From Alteromonadaceae bacterium M269 (GTDB lineage Bacteria; Pseudomonadota; Gammaproteobacteria; Enterobacterales; Alteromonadaceae): a stretch of 64,000 bases of DNA. Where the stretch lies: assembly GCA_004353515.1 (NCBI GenBank), contig SMNZ01000002.1:868001-932000 (forward strand), given 5' to 3'. A model generated the notes under the pieces. That model did not search any database. It was not told where the DNA came from and saw only the letters and a list, made by a program, of their open reading frames with translations. The position numbers and the translations under genes were made by a program. Below are positions 6,839 through 12,822 of this stretch, one piece after another (position 1 is the first letter of the stretch; every line of letters begins with the position of its first letter).

Positions 6839-8569
6839 TTAGATGAGTTGGTAATGCCATCCTAGAAGCGCTAGCACTATTGTTGAAAAGGCAATAGAAA
6901 TAGGGAATCCTGATTTCACAAAATGGCTATAACGGTACTTGGTTGCGCTGAATACCAATAGGTTTGTTTGATAGCCGTAAGGGGACATGAAACTGGCACT
7001 GGCTGCGAAAGCCACTGCAAGCGCAAAGGGCATAATAGGTATTTGGATCGACTCAGATATTGCGTATGCAAAGGGGAACATCAACGCTGCCGCTGCGTTG
7101 TTAGTCACTAGCTCTGTCAAAACCAATGTCACCAGATATACAGCGATAAGTGCAACAAAAGGTGTTGCACCTATCAGTAAAGGCTCTAACCATCCCGTTA
7201 CTATTGATATTACGCCGCTGCTTTCTAATGCCGTGGCGAGGCTGAGTGCGCCGACTATGACCAATATTAAATTGAATGGCAGATTACGCTTAAGCTCTGA
7301 ATTTGATGTAACACCTGTGATAACTAACACAGCAATCAGGAACATTAAGCTAATTGGGAGTGAAATCAATGAGAAGGCGCTTAAAGCAATAGCAACGATA
7401 AAACCGATAATAGTAGTCCATTCTTGCCTGGTGTTTAGTTTGGTTGCAATGCGCTTTTCTGAAAGGATAAAAAAGTTTTTAGATAAGTTATGGCGCTTTT
7501 CGAAGTCAGGGCCTGTGGCGAGTAATAGGAAATCACCTGCTTGAAGCCTTATTTCACCGAGCTTCCCTGATAATACGGCGCCATCTCTTCGAATTGCTAC
7601 AACAGCAGCATCAAATAAGGCTCTAAACCCGAGCTGTTTGAGGTTTTTGCCTATGATAGGAGCTCTATTGGATATAACGACCTCGGTTAAATTCTCTCTC
7701 AATAGGCCATCGTTTTGTGCAAATAGCTTTAACCCATCTATGTGTTGTAGGCCATCTACCTTTTGGATATTACCTGAGAATATCAGCTTATCGTTTGATT
7801 CAATAATGATGTCTGGCGTAACAGGGCTGATAAGTTTGCCTTTGCGCACGATCTCAACCAAGAATAACTCTGGTAAGTTTCTCAGGTGGTTTTGTTCAAC
7901 AGATTTACCGATAAGTTCGGAGTTGGGTTCGACACCAGCTTCGATGAAGTACTCTGTAAACAGACGAGGGCTAGACTGAATATTGGGTAATAACGGTGTG
8001 AGAAAATACATTAATACACCGCACGCTAGGCCAGCTGTTAGTCCAAATAATGTGAAATCCCAGAAGTTAAAGCCGGGTAGGCCGTGGTCTATCAAAAAGC
8101 TATTAACGATAAGGTTAGTCGAGGTACCGACCAAAGTTACCGTACCACCTAATATGGCTGCGTAGGATAAGGGAATAAGCAGTTTAGACGGTGGGTAATA
8201 TTGATTTTGCTTAACCGGACCTATTAAACTCGCAACAACAGCTGTGTTATTTAACAGAGAAGATGATAAGAAGGTTAGTCCGAACAGGCGCCAAAATGTT
8301 TGCGTGTAGCTAGCACGAACAATTTTTCGACCAAGTTTCTTGATAAAAGACGTTTTATCAATAGCTGTACTCACCATCAATAACAGTACCAGCGTGAGTA
8401 AACCTAAGTTGGTAAAGTGGTAAGTAACTTGTGTGAGTGACAGTTGTTGAGTTGCCAGAAGGGCAAGCACGGAAGTAGAAAAAATAGACGCTGGGCGCAG
8501 ATTCGAAAAAATAAGCGCCCCTATTGTTGTCACAAAAATAGCGACAACCAACAGTTGGTTTATACCCAT
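6839..8569 (-). CDS. SLC13/DASS-family permease with two TrkA-C domains, probable sulfate transporter
   Basis: A 576-residue transporter. N-terminal and C-terminal halves of hydrophobic helices flank a soluble middle (about 205-370) holding two RCK_C/TrkA-C regions (for example ELIGKSVEQNHLRNLPELFLVEIVR). This arrangement is known from SLC13-type sulfate permeases of the Chlamydomonas SLT kind. The position at the end of the cysD-C-Q-N operon supports sulfate as substrate, which remains inference. The start codon at 8569, its glycine codon, and the apparent ribosome binding site GAGGT all lie inside the terminal inverted repeat of the element at 8564-8824. The current N-terminus therefore appears to be supplied by that element. 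Confidence 0.88.
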   Translation of the reverse strand: MGINQLLVVAIFVTTIGALIFSNLRPASIFSTSVLALLATQQLSLTQVTYHFTNLGLLTLVLLLMVSTAIDKTSFIKKLGRKIVRASYTQTFWRLFGLTFLSSSLLNNTAVVASLIGPVKQNQYYPPSKLLIPLSYAAILGGTVTLVGTSTNLIVNSFLIDHGLPGFNFWDFTLFGLTAGLACGVLMYFLTPLLPNIQSSPRLFTEYFIEAGVEPNSELIGKSVEQNHLRNLPELFLVEIVRKGKLISPVTPDIIIESNDKLIFSGNIQKVDGLQHIDGLKLFAQNDGLLRENLTEVVISNRAPIIGKNLKQLGFRALFDAAVVAIRRDGAVLSGKLGEIRLQAGDFLLLATGPDFEKRHNLSKNFFILSEKRIATKLNTRQEWTTIIGFIVAIALSAFSLISLPISLMFLIAVLVITGVTSNSELKRNLPFNLILVIVGALSLATALESSGVISIVTGWLEPLLIGATPFVALIAVYLVTLVLTELVTNNAAAALMFPFAYAISESIQIPIMPFALAVAFAASASFMSPYGYQTNLLVFSATKYRYSHFVKSGFPISIAFSTIVLALLGWHYQLI

Positions 8570-8824
8570 ACTACCTCAAGACGCTCATTTCAGATCTATC
8601 ACAGTGCTTTTAATACAAGACGCACTGATGAAGGAATGTCGAGCACCTTTCGAATCAGTGCAACGCAGGAGGGGAAGCACTGTGAAGCTCCCGAAGGGCT
8701 GGGCCAAAAATGATTGATGCTGTGTTAAATTGCCTTGATGTAGGGCAACTATACCATCGCCAATTTGCCTTGCCTCAATCATTTTTTCCTCCAGCTGAAA
8801 TCAGTGTCTTGAGGTAGTATGGGT
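8564..8824. mobile_element. 261-bp MITE-like element with 30-bp terminal inverted repeats
   Basis: The left end (8564-8593) and the reverse complement of the right end (8795-8824) agree at 28 of 30 positions; both begin ACCCATACTACCTCAAGAC. The 6 bases outside each end are similar (GTTTAT at 8558-8563, GTCTAT at 8825-8830), a possible imperfect target duplication. Inside, AAAAATGATTGA (8706-8717) pairs with TCAATCATTTTT (8775-8786), giving a nested stem. On the minus strand a 65-codon ORF (8782 to 8585) starts 5 bases after a strong GGAGG. No transposase domain is recognisable, so the element would be non-autonomous. It lies between cysN and the permease gene. Other copies in the genome would establish it. 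Confidence 0.75.
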
Positions 8825-8838
8825 GTCTATTCATCAAT

Positions 8839-10251
8839 TTATAGCTTACTGATATCTATCGCATGCCAATGCGGGAAGTGCTTGCGCACCAACGCATTGA
8901 ATTCAACTTCGAACTCACTGAACTGATGTTCTTTGACTTCTTCGGTTGCCGCCGCATCGATAATCATTCCAGCGCCAACTGTACTGTTGGTGAGCCTATC
9001 GATAATGACATATGCGCCAGTACCTTGGTTTCTTTGATAAGAATCGCAAGCGATGTCTTGCGTTAGTTTGATATCAACTTCTGCAATTTCGTTCAATTGA
9101 AGGTGAGTTGCTTCGTCACGCTTCATGGTGTTCACATCAATCTTGTGATTGATAGTGGATACAACACCAGGAACAAACTTCGTTGAGAACTTAAACCCGT
9201 ATTGCTTATTAGGCATCATAGGTTCTTCGGCCATCCAAACAAGAGTCGAACGATAGGCGTTAGTATTTAGCGGCATATTGTCGGTTTTGACAATCATGTC
9301 ACCACGCGAAATATCTATCTCGTCTTCAAGTGTAATCGTGACTGCAAGTGGCGGATAAGCGGTTTCTAGTTCACCATCAAATGTGACGATAGATTTCACT
9401 TTTGAGGACTTCCCTGAGGGTAAAGTAACGACTTGATCGCCTTTGCTGATTTGACCTGAAACGATAGTCCCAGCAAAACCCCTAAAGTCTAAGTTAGGTC
9501 TATTCACATACTGAACAGGGAACCTAAAGTCGTCCATATTGAAGTCTTGCGCGACCTCGATGTTCTCAAGCAAGGACATTAGCGTTTCACCTTGATACCA
9601 AGGTGTTGCTTCACTCTTATTAACGACGTTGTCGCCGTTTAGTGCAGAAATAGGAACGAACTGGATATCTGGAATCGATAGCTCTTTGGCAAACTCCAAA
9701 TAGTCTTGCTGAATTTTTTCGTAAACACCGCGATCGTAATCCATCAAGTCCATTTTATTAATTGCAACAATAACGTGTTTGATGCCTAACAATGAGACTA
9801 AGAATGAGTGTCTGCGAGTTTGTGTTTTAACACCACCACGAGCATCAACCAAAATAATGGCTAAGTCACAGGTGGATGCGCCTGTCACCATGTTACGAGT
9901 GTATTGCTCGTGTCCAGGAGTGTCGGCGATAATGAATTTACGCTTATCTGTTGAGAAGTAGCGATAAGCAACGTCGATGGTAATGCCTTGCTCTCGTTCA
10001 GATTGCAAACCATCAACCAACAAAGCTAAATCAACTTTTTCACCGGTTGTTCCAACTTTTTTGCTGTCTTTTGTAACCGCTGCTAGCTGATCTTCATAGA
10101 TCATCTTTGAGTCGTGTAGGAGTCGACCAATAAGCGTACTCTTACCATCATCAACGCTCCCGCAAGTCAGAAAGCGCAACATATCTTTATTTTCATGTTG
10201 ATGAAGGTAGGAAATAATGTCGGTTTGTAATAATTCGTTTTCGCTATTCAT
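8839..10251 (-). CDS. cysN: Sulfate adenylyltransferase GTPase subunit CysN
   Basis: A 470-residue regulatory GTPase of ATP sulfurylase. With CysD it makes adenosine phosphosulfate (APS) from sulfate and ATP, using GTP hydrolysis to drive the reaction. The G domain carries [15 protein letters not shown] (P loop), DTPGHEQY (G3) and INKMDLMD (G4). Beta-barrel domains follow to about residue 450. There is no fused APS kinase; cysC is a separate gene upstream. The start lies 3 bases after the cysQ stop, so translation may be coupled. In many gammaproteobacteria cysN directly follows cysD; here cysC and cysQ lie between them. Confidence 0.97.
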
Positions 10252-10254
10252 GAC

Positions 10255-11049
10255 TTAACAGCTCACTAAAAAATAAGGGTTTAATAAAGATTCTTTCTGG
10301 TTATAAAGCAATGGCTTAGCGTCCTCAGAAAACGGTGTGGAATGGTCTTCATAGACAGTCACTTTTCCACCTGACGCTTCAACAACAGCTTGTGCTGCGG
10401 CTGTATCCCACTCGGAGGTTGGACCTAGCCTTGGGTACATATGCGCTTTACCTTCAGCCACAAGGCATAGTTTTAGAGAACTACCCATAGGAATGAGTTC
10501 GGCTTCGCCATCTAAAGAAGCAATGAGTGCTTGTATATCCGGACTCTGATGTGAGCGACTGCCAACAATCTTCCAACTTTCATTTGCCTGACGAGCTTTA
10601 GGTGAAATGGCCGAATTCCCTGTCTCCTCAAGCTTATAGGCTTGAACAGCTTCACCTTCCTGATTAACACCGACGTAAGTTGTCGATAATACAGGGGCAT
10701 AAACAACACCTAAGGTAGCCTTGCCATTTTCGATAAGCGCAATATTGACTGTGAATTCGCCATTTTTCTTTATGAACTCTTTGGTGCCATCAAGTGGATC
10801 AACTAACCAATAACGCGTCCACTTCTGGCGTGTTTCCCAGTCAATCTTTGATGATTCTTCTGAGAGAATAGGGAGATTCGATATAGCTTCCAAGCCGTTC
10901 ACGATAATATGGTGGGCTGCAAGGTCTGCCTCAGTAAGCGGACTTTTATCGCTTTTATCAACGACATCAAAATCTCGCTGGTAAATTTCCATTATCGCGG
11001 CACCAGCTCGATGTGCGATGTCTATGACGTTTTCTGTTAGCTGACTCAT
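10255..11049 (-). CDS. cysQ: 3'(2'),5'-bisphosphate nucleotidase CysQ
   Basis: A 264-residue member of the inositol-monophosphatase-like family. CysQ removes the 3' phosphate of PAP (and PAPS), which builds up when sulfate is activated. Metal-binding motifs are visible: LSEESSKIDW, then WLVDPLDGTKEFIKKNGEFTVNIAL, and SEWDTAAAQAVVEASGG near the C-terminus. Its start overlaps the cysC stop by one base, and cysN follows 3 bases after it. Being embedded in the cys operon favours PAP hydrolysis over inositol phosphate hydrolysis. Confidence 0.95.
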   Translation of the reverse strand: MSQLTENVIDIAHRAGAAIMEIYQRDFDVVDKSDKSPLTEADLAAHHIIVNGLEAISNLPILSEESSKIDWETRQKWTRYWLVDPLDGTKEFIKKNGEFTVNIALIENGKATLGVVYAPVLSTTYVGVNQEGEAVQAYKLEETGNSAISPKARQANESWKIVGSRSHQSPDIQALIASLDGEAELIPMGSSLKLCLVAEGKAHMYPRLGPTSEWDTAAAQAVVEASGGKVTVYEDHSTPFSEDAKPLLYNQKESLLNPYFLVSC

Positions 11050-11645
11050 TAATCTATGAGGCCTTGTTCTTGTAGTGCTGCAACAATGCGCTCAGCGGAA
11101 TCTGATGCTGATTCTTCCTGATAGGTTAGGTGTATTTCAGGTTTCTGAGGTGCTTCATATGCAGAGTCGATACCGGTAAACTGGCTAATCTCTCCGTTAC
11201 GAACCTTTTTGTACAAACCTTTAGGGTCACGCTGCTCACATACATCGAGTGGCGTATCAACAAAAACTTCAACGAACTCGTTTTCTTCCAACAAGCCTCG
11301 GCAGTAATCTCTATCGGCTTGGAAAGGCGAAATGAAAGCTGTAATTACGATAGTGCCTGAGTCCACAAAAAGTTTAGAGACTTCGCTAATACGTCTAATG
11401 TTTTCAACACGGTCTTTGTCGCCAAAACCTAAATCGCCGCACAATCCATGACGCACATTGTCACCATCTAAAAGGTAGGTGTGCTTACCGAGTTCGGTTA
11501 GCTTTTTCTCAACTAAGTTCGCAATTGTAGATTTACCGGAACCACTTAGTCCTGTCATCCATAGAACGAAAGGCTTTTGCTTTTTAGCATCTGCTCTGCG
11601 CTTTTTATCAACTTCATGTTGGTGCCAAACAATATTTGTAGCCAT
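11049..11645 (-). CDS. cysC: Adenylyl-sulfate kinase CysC
   Basis: A 198-residue APS kinase, phosphorylating APS to PAPS with ATP in the cytoplasm. The P loop [12 protein letters not shown] is at about residues 32-43. [17 protein letters not shown] and [13 protein letters not shown] (substrate-binding loops) are intact, as is the lid region [13 protein letters not shown]. The length matches stand-alone CysC enzymes. The start codon overlaps the cysD stop by one base and the stop overlaps the cysQ start, a tightly packed operon. Confidence 0.97.
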
Positions 11646-12559
11646 TAGAAATACCCTTCCATCTTTTTCTTCTCCATTGAACCTGAAGAATCATGATCAA
11701 TCATTCGCCCTTGGCGCTCAGATGTTTTAGTTAACAACATTTCTTGAATTACGTCAGTGAGCGTATTGGCATTAGATTCAACAGCACCTGTAAGAGGGTA
11801 ACAACCTAATGTTCTGAACCTTACTGAACGCATTTCAGGTGTTTCACCTTCATTCAATGGCATACGATCATCATCAACCATGATCAACATACCATCGCGC
11901 TTAACAACTGGGCGTGGTTTCGCTAAATAAAGTGAGGGTATTTCGATATTTTCCAAGTAAATATATTGCCAGATGTCGAGCTCAGTCCAGTTAGACATAG
12001 GGAATACGCGGATGCTCTCGCCTTGATTAATTTGCGAGTTATAAATATTCCATAATTCTGGTCGTTGGTTTTTAGGATCCCAGCGATGGTTCTCATCACG
12101 GAAAGAATATACGCGTTCTTTAGCGCGAGACTTCTCTTCATCGCGGCGAGCGCCACCAAAAGCGGCATCAAATTTATATTTATTTAATGCTTGCTTAAGT
12201 GCAACTGTCTTCATGATATCCGTATGTTTAGAACTACCATGAGTAAATGGGCCGACGCCCATATCGATACCTTCTTGGTTTTTATGCACAATCAGGTCGA
12301 AGTCGTGTTTCTCAGCCATTCTGTCGCGGAATTCAATCATTTCTTTGAACTTCCACGTTGTATCAACATGCATTAATGGAAAAGGTATCTTACCTGGTGC
12401 GAATGCCTTTCTAGCAACATGTAGCAATACAGATGAATCTTTACCAACTGAGTAAAGCATGACAGGGTTATCAAATTCAGCTGCAACCTCACGGAATATG
12501 TGAATAGATTCAGCCTCAAGTTGTTTTAAATGAGTAACAGTTGGAACACTGGTGGTCAT
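11645..12559 (-). CDS. cysD: Sulfate adenylyltransferase subunit CysD
   Basis: Catalytic subunit of ATP sulfurylase (about 304 residues), a PP-loop enzyme pairing with Cys[21 protein letters not shown] and the PP-loop [16 protein letters not shown] are typical, as are [16 protein letters not shown] and [16 protein letters not shown]. An in-frame ATG lies 12 bases upstream (12571), but nothing like a ribosome binding site precedes it, whereas GGAA precedes the ATG at 12559, so I prefer the latter. It is the first gene of the operon cysD-cysC-cysQ-cysN-permease. The upstream region 12560-12822 presumably holds the promoter; I could not identify a CysB-type site. Confidence 0.96.
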
Positions 12560-12822
12560 AGTGGTTTCCATAATTAAAGATATTCAATGAGTATACGTAA
12601 ACTGTCTAAAATGCTGACTTTACCGCTAGCCGATGTCGACTATTGAGCCATCACCGAAATCGTCCAAGCCATTAGATTTAGGGTTTAAGACAAATTAGGT
12701 ATACCAAACAATTATATGCTTAGAACAATATCATAAGTATACAGCTTCAATGTGAGAGCGAGTATGCCACTTTGCTATTAGATAACATCGAAAGGTATTA
12801 AAACGATGATATATATAACGTG

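Follow-up and report, generated by a model that had tools for sequence, protein, structure and literature searches.

A MITE copy of 259 bp (8565..8823, CCCAT...ATGGG, on the minus strand in the orientation of the permease), delimited by repeat match, other copies and alignment, has been identified between the cysN and permease genes in a 64-kb window of the genome of Alteromonadaceae bacterium M269. Based on sequence comparisons, it is very probably a non-autonomous MITE of the IS630/Tc1 type that inserted in the permease gene, its end replacing the native start codon in register. A mobile element inside its second codon has not destroyed the gene, as the start codon on the end of the element is in register; this suggests a simple and testable route by which MITEs could rewire translation starts. 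Such MITEs can also mislead the annotation of N-termini and operons.

The inverted ends noted in the initial annotation are borne out, the arms 8564-8593 and 8795-8824 being identical at 28 of 30 positions (93%). Comparison with other copies refines the limits of the element to CCC...GGG (8565-8823), with terminal inverted repeats at 8565..8593 (plus strand) and 8795..8823 (minus strand). An 18-bp end pattern occurs in the window at these two sites only, with 0.01 occurrences expected. The start of the permease ORF does lie in the left arm, as had been proposed: its minus-strand reading is GAGGT-AGT-ATG-GG, in which a Shine-Dalgarno-like GAGGT (8577-8573) of putative function stands 3 nt before the ATG at 8569. 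This ATG opens a 576-aa permease of SLC13/CitMHS type (6839..8569, minus strand), assigned from its ORF, Pfam matches (CitMHS, TrkA_C, Na_sulph_symp) and homologue comparison. The cysN gene (8839..10251, minus strand) is upstream of the element in the operon. The region 8839-12571 reads as the sulfate-assimilation genes cysD, cysC, cysQ-like and cysN in this order, followed by the permease; the identity of cysN and of the permease has been checked and the other three assignments are from reading.

The initial annotation described a MITE-like element from a single copy; the search of this genome and its relatives with the end sequence has now revealed dozens of copies, with TA flanks and IS630-like ends, and they have the features of bacterial MITEs in being short, multi-copy and devoid of a transposase gene, with terminal inverted repeats. 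The genome of M269 encodes three near-full copies (91-100% identity over 264 bp, the two besides the window copy at 91-92%) and about eight decayed ones, and the end motif is also found near further remnants. Full-length relatives of the window copy share 73% identity in genome G034 and 69% in G002. With up to 2 mismatches the end motif is present in 35 of 148 family genomes, representing 19 of 52 genera, and reversed-pattern controls are near zero. The exact degenerate end pattern matches at least 120 stretches, spread over ten or more marine genera, and the matches listed include Photobacterium, Shewanella, Colwellia, Psychromonas, Pseudoalteromonas, Enterovibrio, Grimontia, Moritella, Motilimonas, Aliagarivorans and Alishewanella. 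Paired ends have a sharp length mode of 258 bp, with minor classes of 275, ~304, ~330, ~158 and ~48 bp. Two copies at different places in genome G009 are 99-100% identical, which indicates recent movement in that genome. Searches of phage records gave no match to the element. Plasmid records contain two related copies, both on large marine replicons, besides one match that is short and weak. Among the fetched loci, a sole end pair of 1112 bp (L157) was considered as an autonomous element and rejected, as it is a chance end beside a normal copy. Minimal forms consisting of ends only, of 33 bp (CCCAAGC-TACCTCAAGAT-GCTTGGG) and 47-49 bp, are flanked by TA and recurrent in several genomes (L122:4074, L200, L217, L195; L378, L381, L391, L399); they are either products of repeated internal deletion or the element in its smallest mobile form.

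TA is found at both sides in 69 of 71 paired copies, as expected of a target-site duplication. In the window it is present on the permease side (8563..8564), and the outer dinucleotide on the cysN side (8824..8825) is TG, reading CA on the sense strand; it corresponds to the TA duplication as a decayed or variant target. When these 2 bp are counted once the window site regains the native reading D-I-N-Q. Beyond the flanking TA another TA occurs in ~91% of the copies, so that the preferred target is close to TATATA.

The 20-bp ends of the element match those of IS630-family insertion sequences, and an IS630-family insertion sequence is the likely mover. In Psychromonas arctica an insertion sequence end, TATACCCAAGCTACCTCAAGATGC, has five copies at contig ends; the five contigs stop 98 bases into an element whose beginning is exactly the MITE end and which, read backwards, leads into a transposase C-terminus, with the stop codon inside the end itself (GCA-TCT-TGA). 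Contig breaks inside the IS630 element, with the transposase stop in the terminal repeat, are seen at L178, L145 and L222. Full relatives of this transposase belong to the IS630 family (NCBIfam E=1.1e-66; DDE_3, HTH_33), are annotated as such in Salmonella plasmids and have ends beginning TATACCC, so that the MITE ends are common to autonomous IS630 insertion sequences. An IS630 with ends like those of the marine MITE (L270, NZ_CP016411, a Salmonella plasmid) is widespread among large plasmids of Salmonella (138 matching records). Genome G116, from the same family as the window, has an IS630 transposase fragment ending TATACCCAAGCTACTTCAAGATGC which matches the MITE ends of G116. A transposase element with the same ends has thus been found in P. 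arctica and, as a fragment, in G116, but a search for P0001-like IS630 transposases detected none in the M269 genome or in the MITE-bearing genomes G002, G009 and G034. Since the M269 genome has no detected IS630 transposase of the matching group, we infer the mover from the ends.

The claim that the element supplies the start codon of the permease is strengthened by reconstruction of the empty site and by cysN-permease junctions without the element, about 25 in number, in which relatives have a start codon at the aligned position. Twenty-nine other permease loci were examined and all lack the element. The junctions comprise 21 that were measured, where cysN ends 0-32 nt before the aligned start codon, and four read by eye; their starts are typically ATG-GAC-ATA-AAC-CAG (MDINQLLV). 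The window junction runs from cysN-TAA through ATTGATGA and ATA-GAC-A to the element (CCC...GGG), and then TATAAACC; the permease-side flank after the GGG is TATAAACCAACTG. When the flanks are joined with the dinucleotide counted once they read ATA-GAC-ATA-AAC-CAA-CTG, the native reading except that its ATG is now ATA. The element end AGTATGGG followed by TA gives ATG-GGT-ATA-AAC. From these two readings it follows that the insertion lies inside codons 2-3 and that the start codon was replaced in register, the empty site being reconstructed from the window flanks and from relatives of at most 71% permease identity. The stranded native start position, now ATA (ATA GAC A, then the element), is at 8828..8830 on the minus strand, as located by comparing the joined flanks with relatives.

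In the most probable course of events the MITE, moved at present or in the past by a transposase of the IS630/Tc1 type, entered the permease gene (ATG GA^YA TAAAC) at a TA-like dinucleotide where codons 2 and 3 meet, severing the native start codon from the gene. The element end with the duplicated TA recreated ATG-GGT-ATA-AAC in the same frame and position, limiting the change in the protein to MDINQ becoming MGINQ, and the stranded ATG has since mutated to ATA. Translation would most likely proceed from the element ATG via the GAGGT of the terminal repeat. In the full cysN-permease transcript this start would be locked in an end-to-end helix and should depend on its disruption, either by ribosomes traversing the element or by processing of double-strand RNA.

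The window element is predicted to fold with -109.7 kcal/mol (z -8.3). An alignment of 31 copies across genera, with a mean column identity of 65%, gives a fold with a stem joining the two ends and two long arms capped by hairpins. In this alignment 92.6% of paired cells are complementary, compared with 71.1% in shuffles and 34-41% with partners slid, double changes are seen in 49 of 67 pairs, and the covariation score is 0.55 against 0.18. In some groups the second arm can be recognised as an inverted copy of the first; this is not so in others, the window copy included. Mismatches derived from the counts, ~65 G-T to 48 A-C, have no clear RNA-strand bias and point to a DNA-level or strand-symmetric constraint, or to palindrome correction. 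Hairpin-templated correction during replication is known from bacterial inverted repeats, and the covariation of the arms may have arisen in this way and not by selection on a functional structure, a possibility that we consider real but the less likely one. The near balance of the two mismatch types is consistent with such correction. Loops, internal bulges (AAGGC / AACGCAG) and total length are however conserved over many genera, which counts against it because correction alone should erase them.

The GAGGT put forward as a ribosome binding site is present, but its spacing is short (3 nt) and it is fully paired with the opposite end in the full-length transcript. With at least 258 nt upstream included, the predicted unpaired probability of both GAGGT and ATG is 0.0; with the distal half left out, that of GAGGT is 0.71-0.91. 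From the predicted pairing, an intact copy would be expected to keep its own start silent or gated for as long as the helix stays closed. Two further genes with element ends at their starts, clcA and an RluA-like gene, no longer have the distal end. The minus-strand ORF of 65 codons inside the element (8782-8585), preceded by GGAGG and five A and stopping 15 bases before the permease ATG, is as first described and could bring ribosomes near the permease start. Operon tolerance conferred by this ORF is not supported as a trait of the family: the closest copy has the frame open, another has it frameshifted, and other genera lack it. The ORF was also rejected as a gene and is probably without coding constraint: it has no Pfam match, is frameshifted in L003 and truncated in L006, and such an ATG is missing from aligned copies of most other genera. 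A consensus scan of the element gave no promoter or terminator.

The predicted sequestration of the GAGGT and ATG would also suit a near-neutral insertion, in which the start in the element is coincidental and the permease is either started further downstream, for which a TTG at codon 7 offers an alternative, or poorly expressed. The absence of an in-frame excess at element ends in other genomes, given below, fits the same explanation. We regard it as quite improbable, since the element ATG coincides exactly with the position of the native start, the TTG is preceded by no other good start, the native ATG has mutated to ATA, the 576 codons of the permease are intact, and clcA provides a second exact case. 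An alternative view would make the element no insertion but a regulatory RNA or attenuator resident in the cys operon, as its very stable fold, its covariation and its location between cysN and the permease might suggest. This is hardly credible in view of the element's absence from 29/29 other permease loci, its copies at unrelated genes with TA flanks and the Rfam search (E up to 1), which gave no family match.

The in-register replacement at the permease has a parallel at clcA (L016/L333) of the same genome, where a 20-bp remnant end forms ATG-GGT-ATA-AAT and the ATG of the remnant coincides with the native ATG position in 8 of 13 homologues. A decayed element end is situated at the start of an RluA-like gene, some homologues of which start at the same place, and an alpha/beta hydrolase gene at an element end still has an ATG two codons further downstream. 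The Slt gene (L003) was rejected as a third exact takeover, as the rejoined site puts no ATG in frame. Bare or truncated ends directly at gene starts are observed at L016, L015 and L008 (contigs C24, C25 and C11), the genes concerned being a ClcA-like channel, an alpha/beta hydrolase and an RluA-like pseudouridine synthase. A DUF445-like gene is a further candidate case at an element end.

In the M269 genome a long ORF in the frame of the ATG extends from 6 of 23 outward ends, a small sample that includes remnants found by end similarity, and the other frames give 0 and 1 (one-sided p 0.06 against the comparable frame). Among 135 ATG-bearing ends in four other genomes (G009, G173-G175) there are 6 long ORFs in the ATG frame and 4 in the comparable frame, which is no excess, and a general donation of starts across genomes has been rejected on these counts. 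The proportions 6/23 and 6/135 differ (Fisher p=0.0026). The proposal that the element creates N-termini for neighbouring genes therefore stands for a few old copies in the M269 genome and finds no support in the 135 ends of the other four. A survivor effect, in which old copies persist where they serve as gene starts, is the simplest reading. A broader view is that the ends are portable start modules facing outward both ways (GAGGT-NNN-[A/T]TG-GGT-A), that insertion at TA in codon 2/3 regenerates a start in register, that old copies shrunk to a bare end persist as ribosome binding site and start of the host gene, and that the two-armed structure is under selection across families; taken as a whole we think this unlikely.

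RUP, the 107 bp repeat unit of pneumococcus associated with IS630-Spn1 (PMC2229807), is likewise non-autonomous, with a TA target and terminal repeats resembling those of IS630. The present family differs from it in being ~258 bp long, two-armed and found in marine Gammaproteobacteria. ERIC/IRU/RU-1 (127 bp) and YPAL/RU-2 (168 bp) are small folded mobile sequences of Gammaproteobacteria; the ends of ERIC/RU-1 carry TA, and RU-2 sequences have been reported as N-terminal parts of ORFs (PMC2759123, PMC2229807). The present family, with a length of 258 bp and ends of its own, is set apart from the 127-bp ERIC consensus and from RU-2 by length and ends, and whereas RU-2 adds ~30 residues, the present element replaces only the start codon and one residue, in register. 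Correia/NEMIS elements are also flanked by TA, and RNase III processes their transcripts at the terminal repeats (PMC10969869), which by analogy may be a release mechanism for the present element; unlike it, they belong to Neisseria and have other ends. The co-transcribed BOX repeats of pneumococcus give neighbouring ORFs stop and sometimes start codons (PMC3049150) and so resemble the present element in contributing codons, but they are modular (A-B-C) with another mover, and the reported BOX ORFs are without good Shine-Dalgarno sequences. A literature search with the end sequence gave no relevant paper within a scope that included only a minority of subscription papers, so that an earlier description may exist. 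The family, which adds to known MITEs a widespread one with strong covarying structure in marine Gammaproteobacteria, is apparently large and unnamed. The kind of element is familiar; what is unusual is the exact takeover of a start codon visible in the sequence.

The window at 8826-8837 and the right flank of the L003 copy have about 11 bases in common adjoining the element (TTGATGAATA, sense strand), which reflects either chance or a common target preference.
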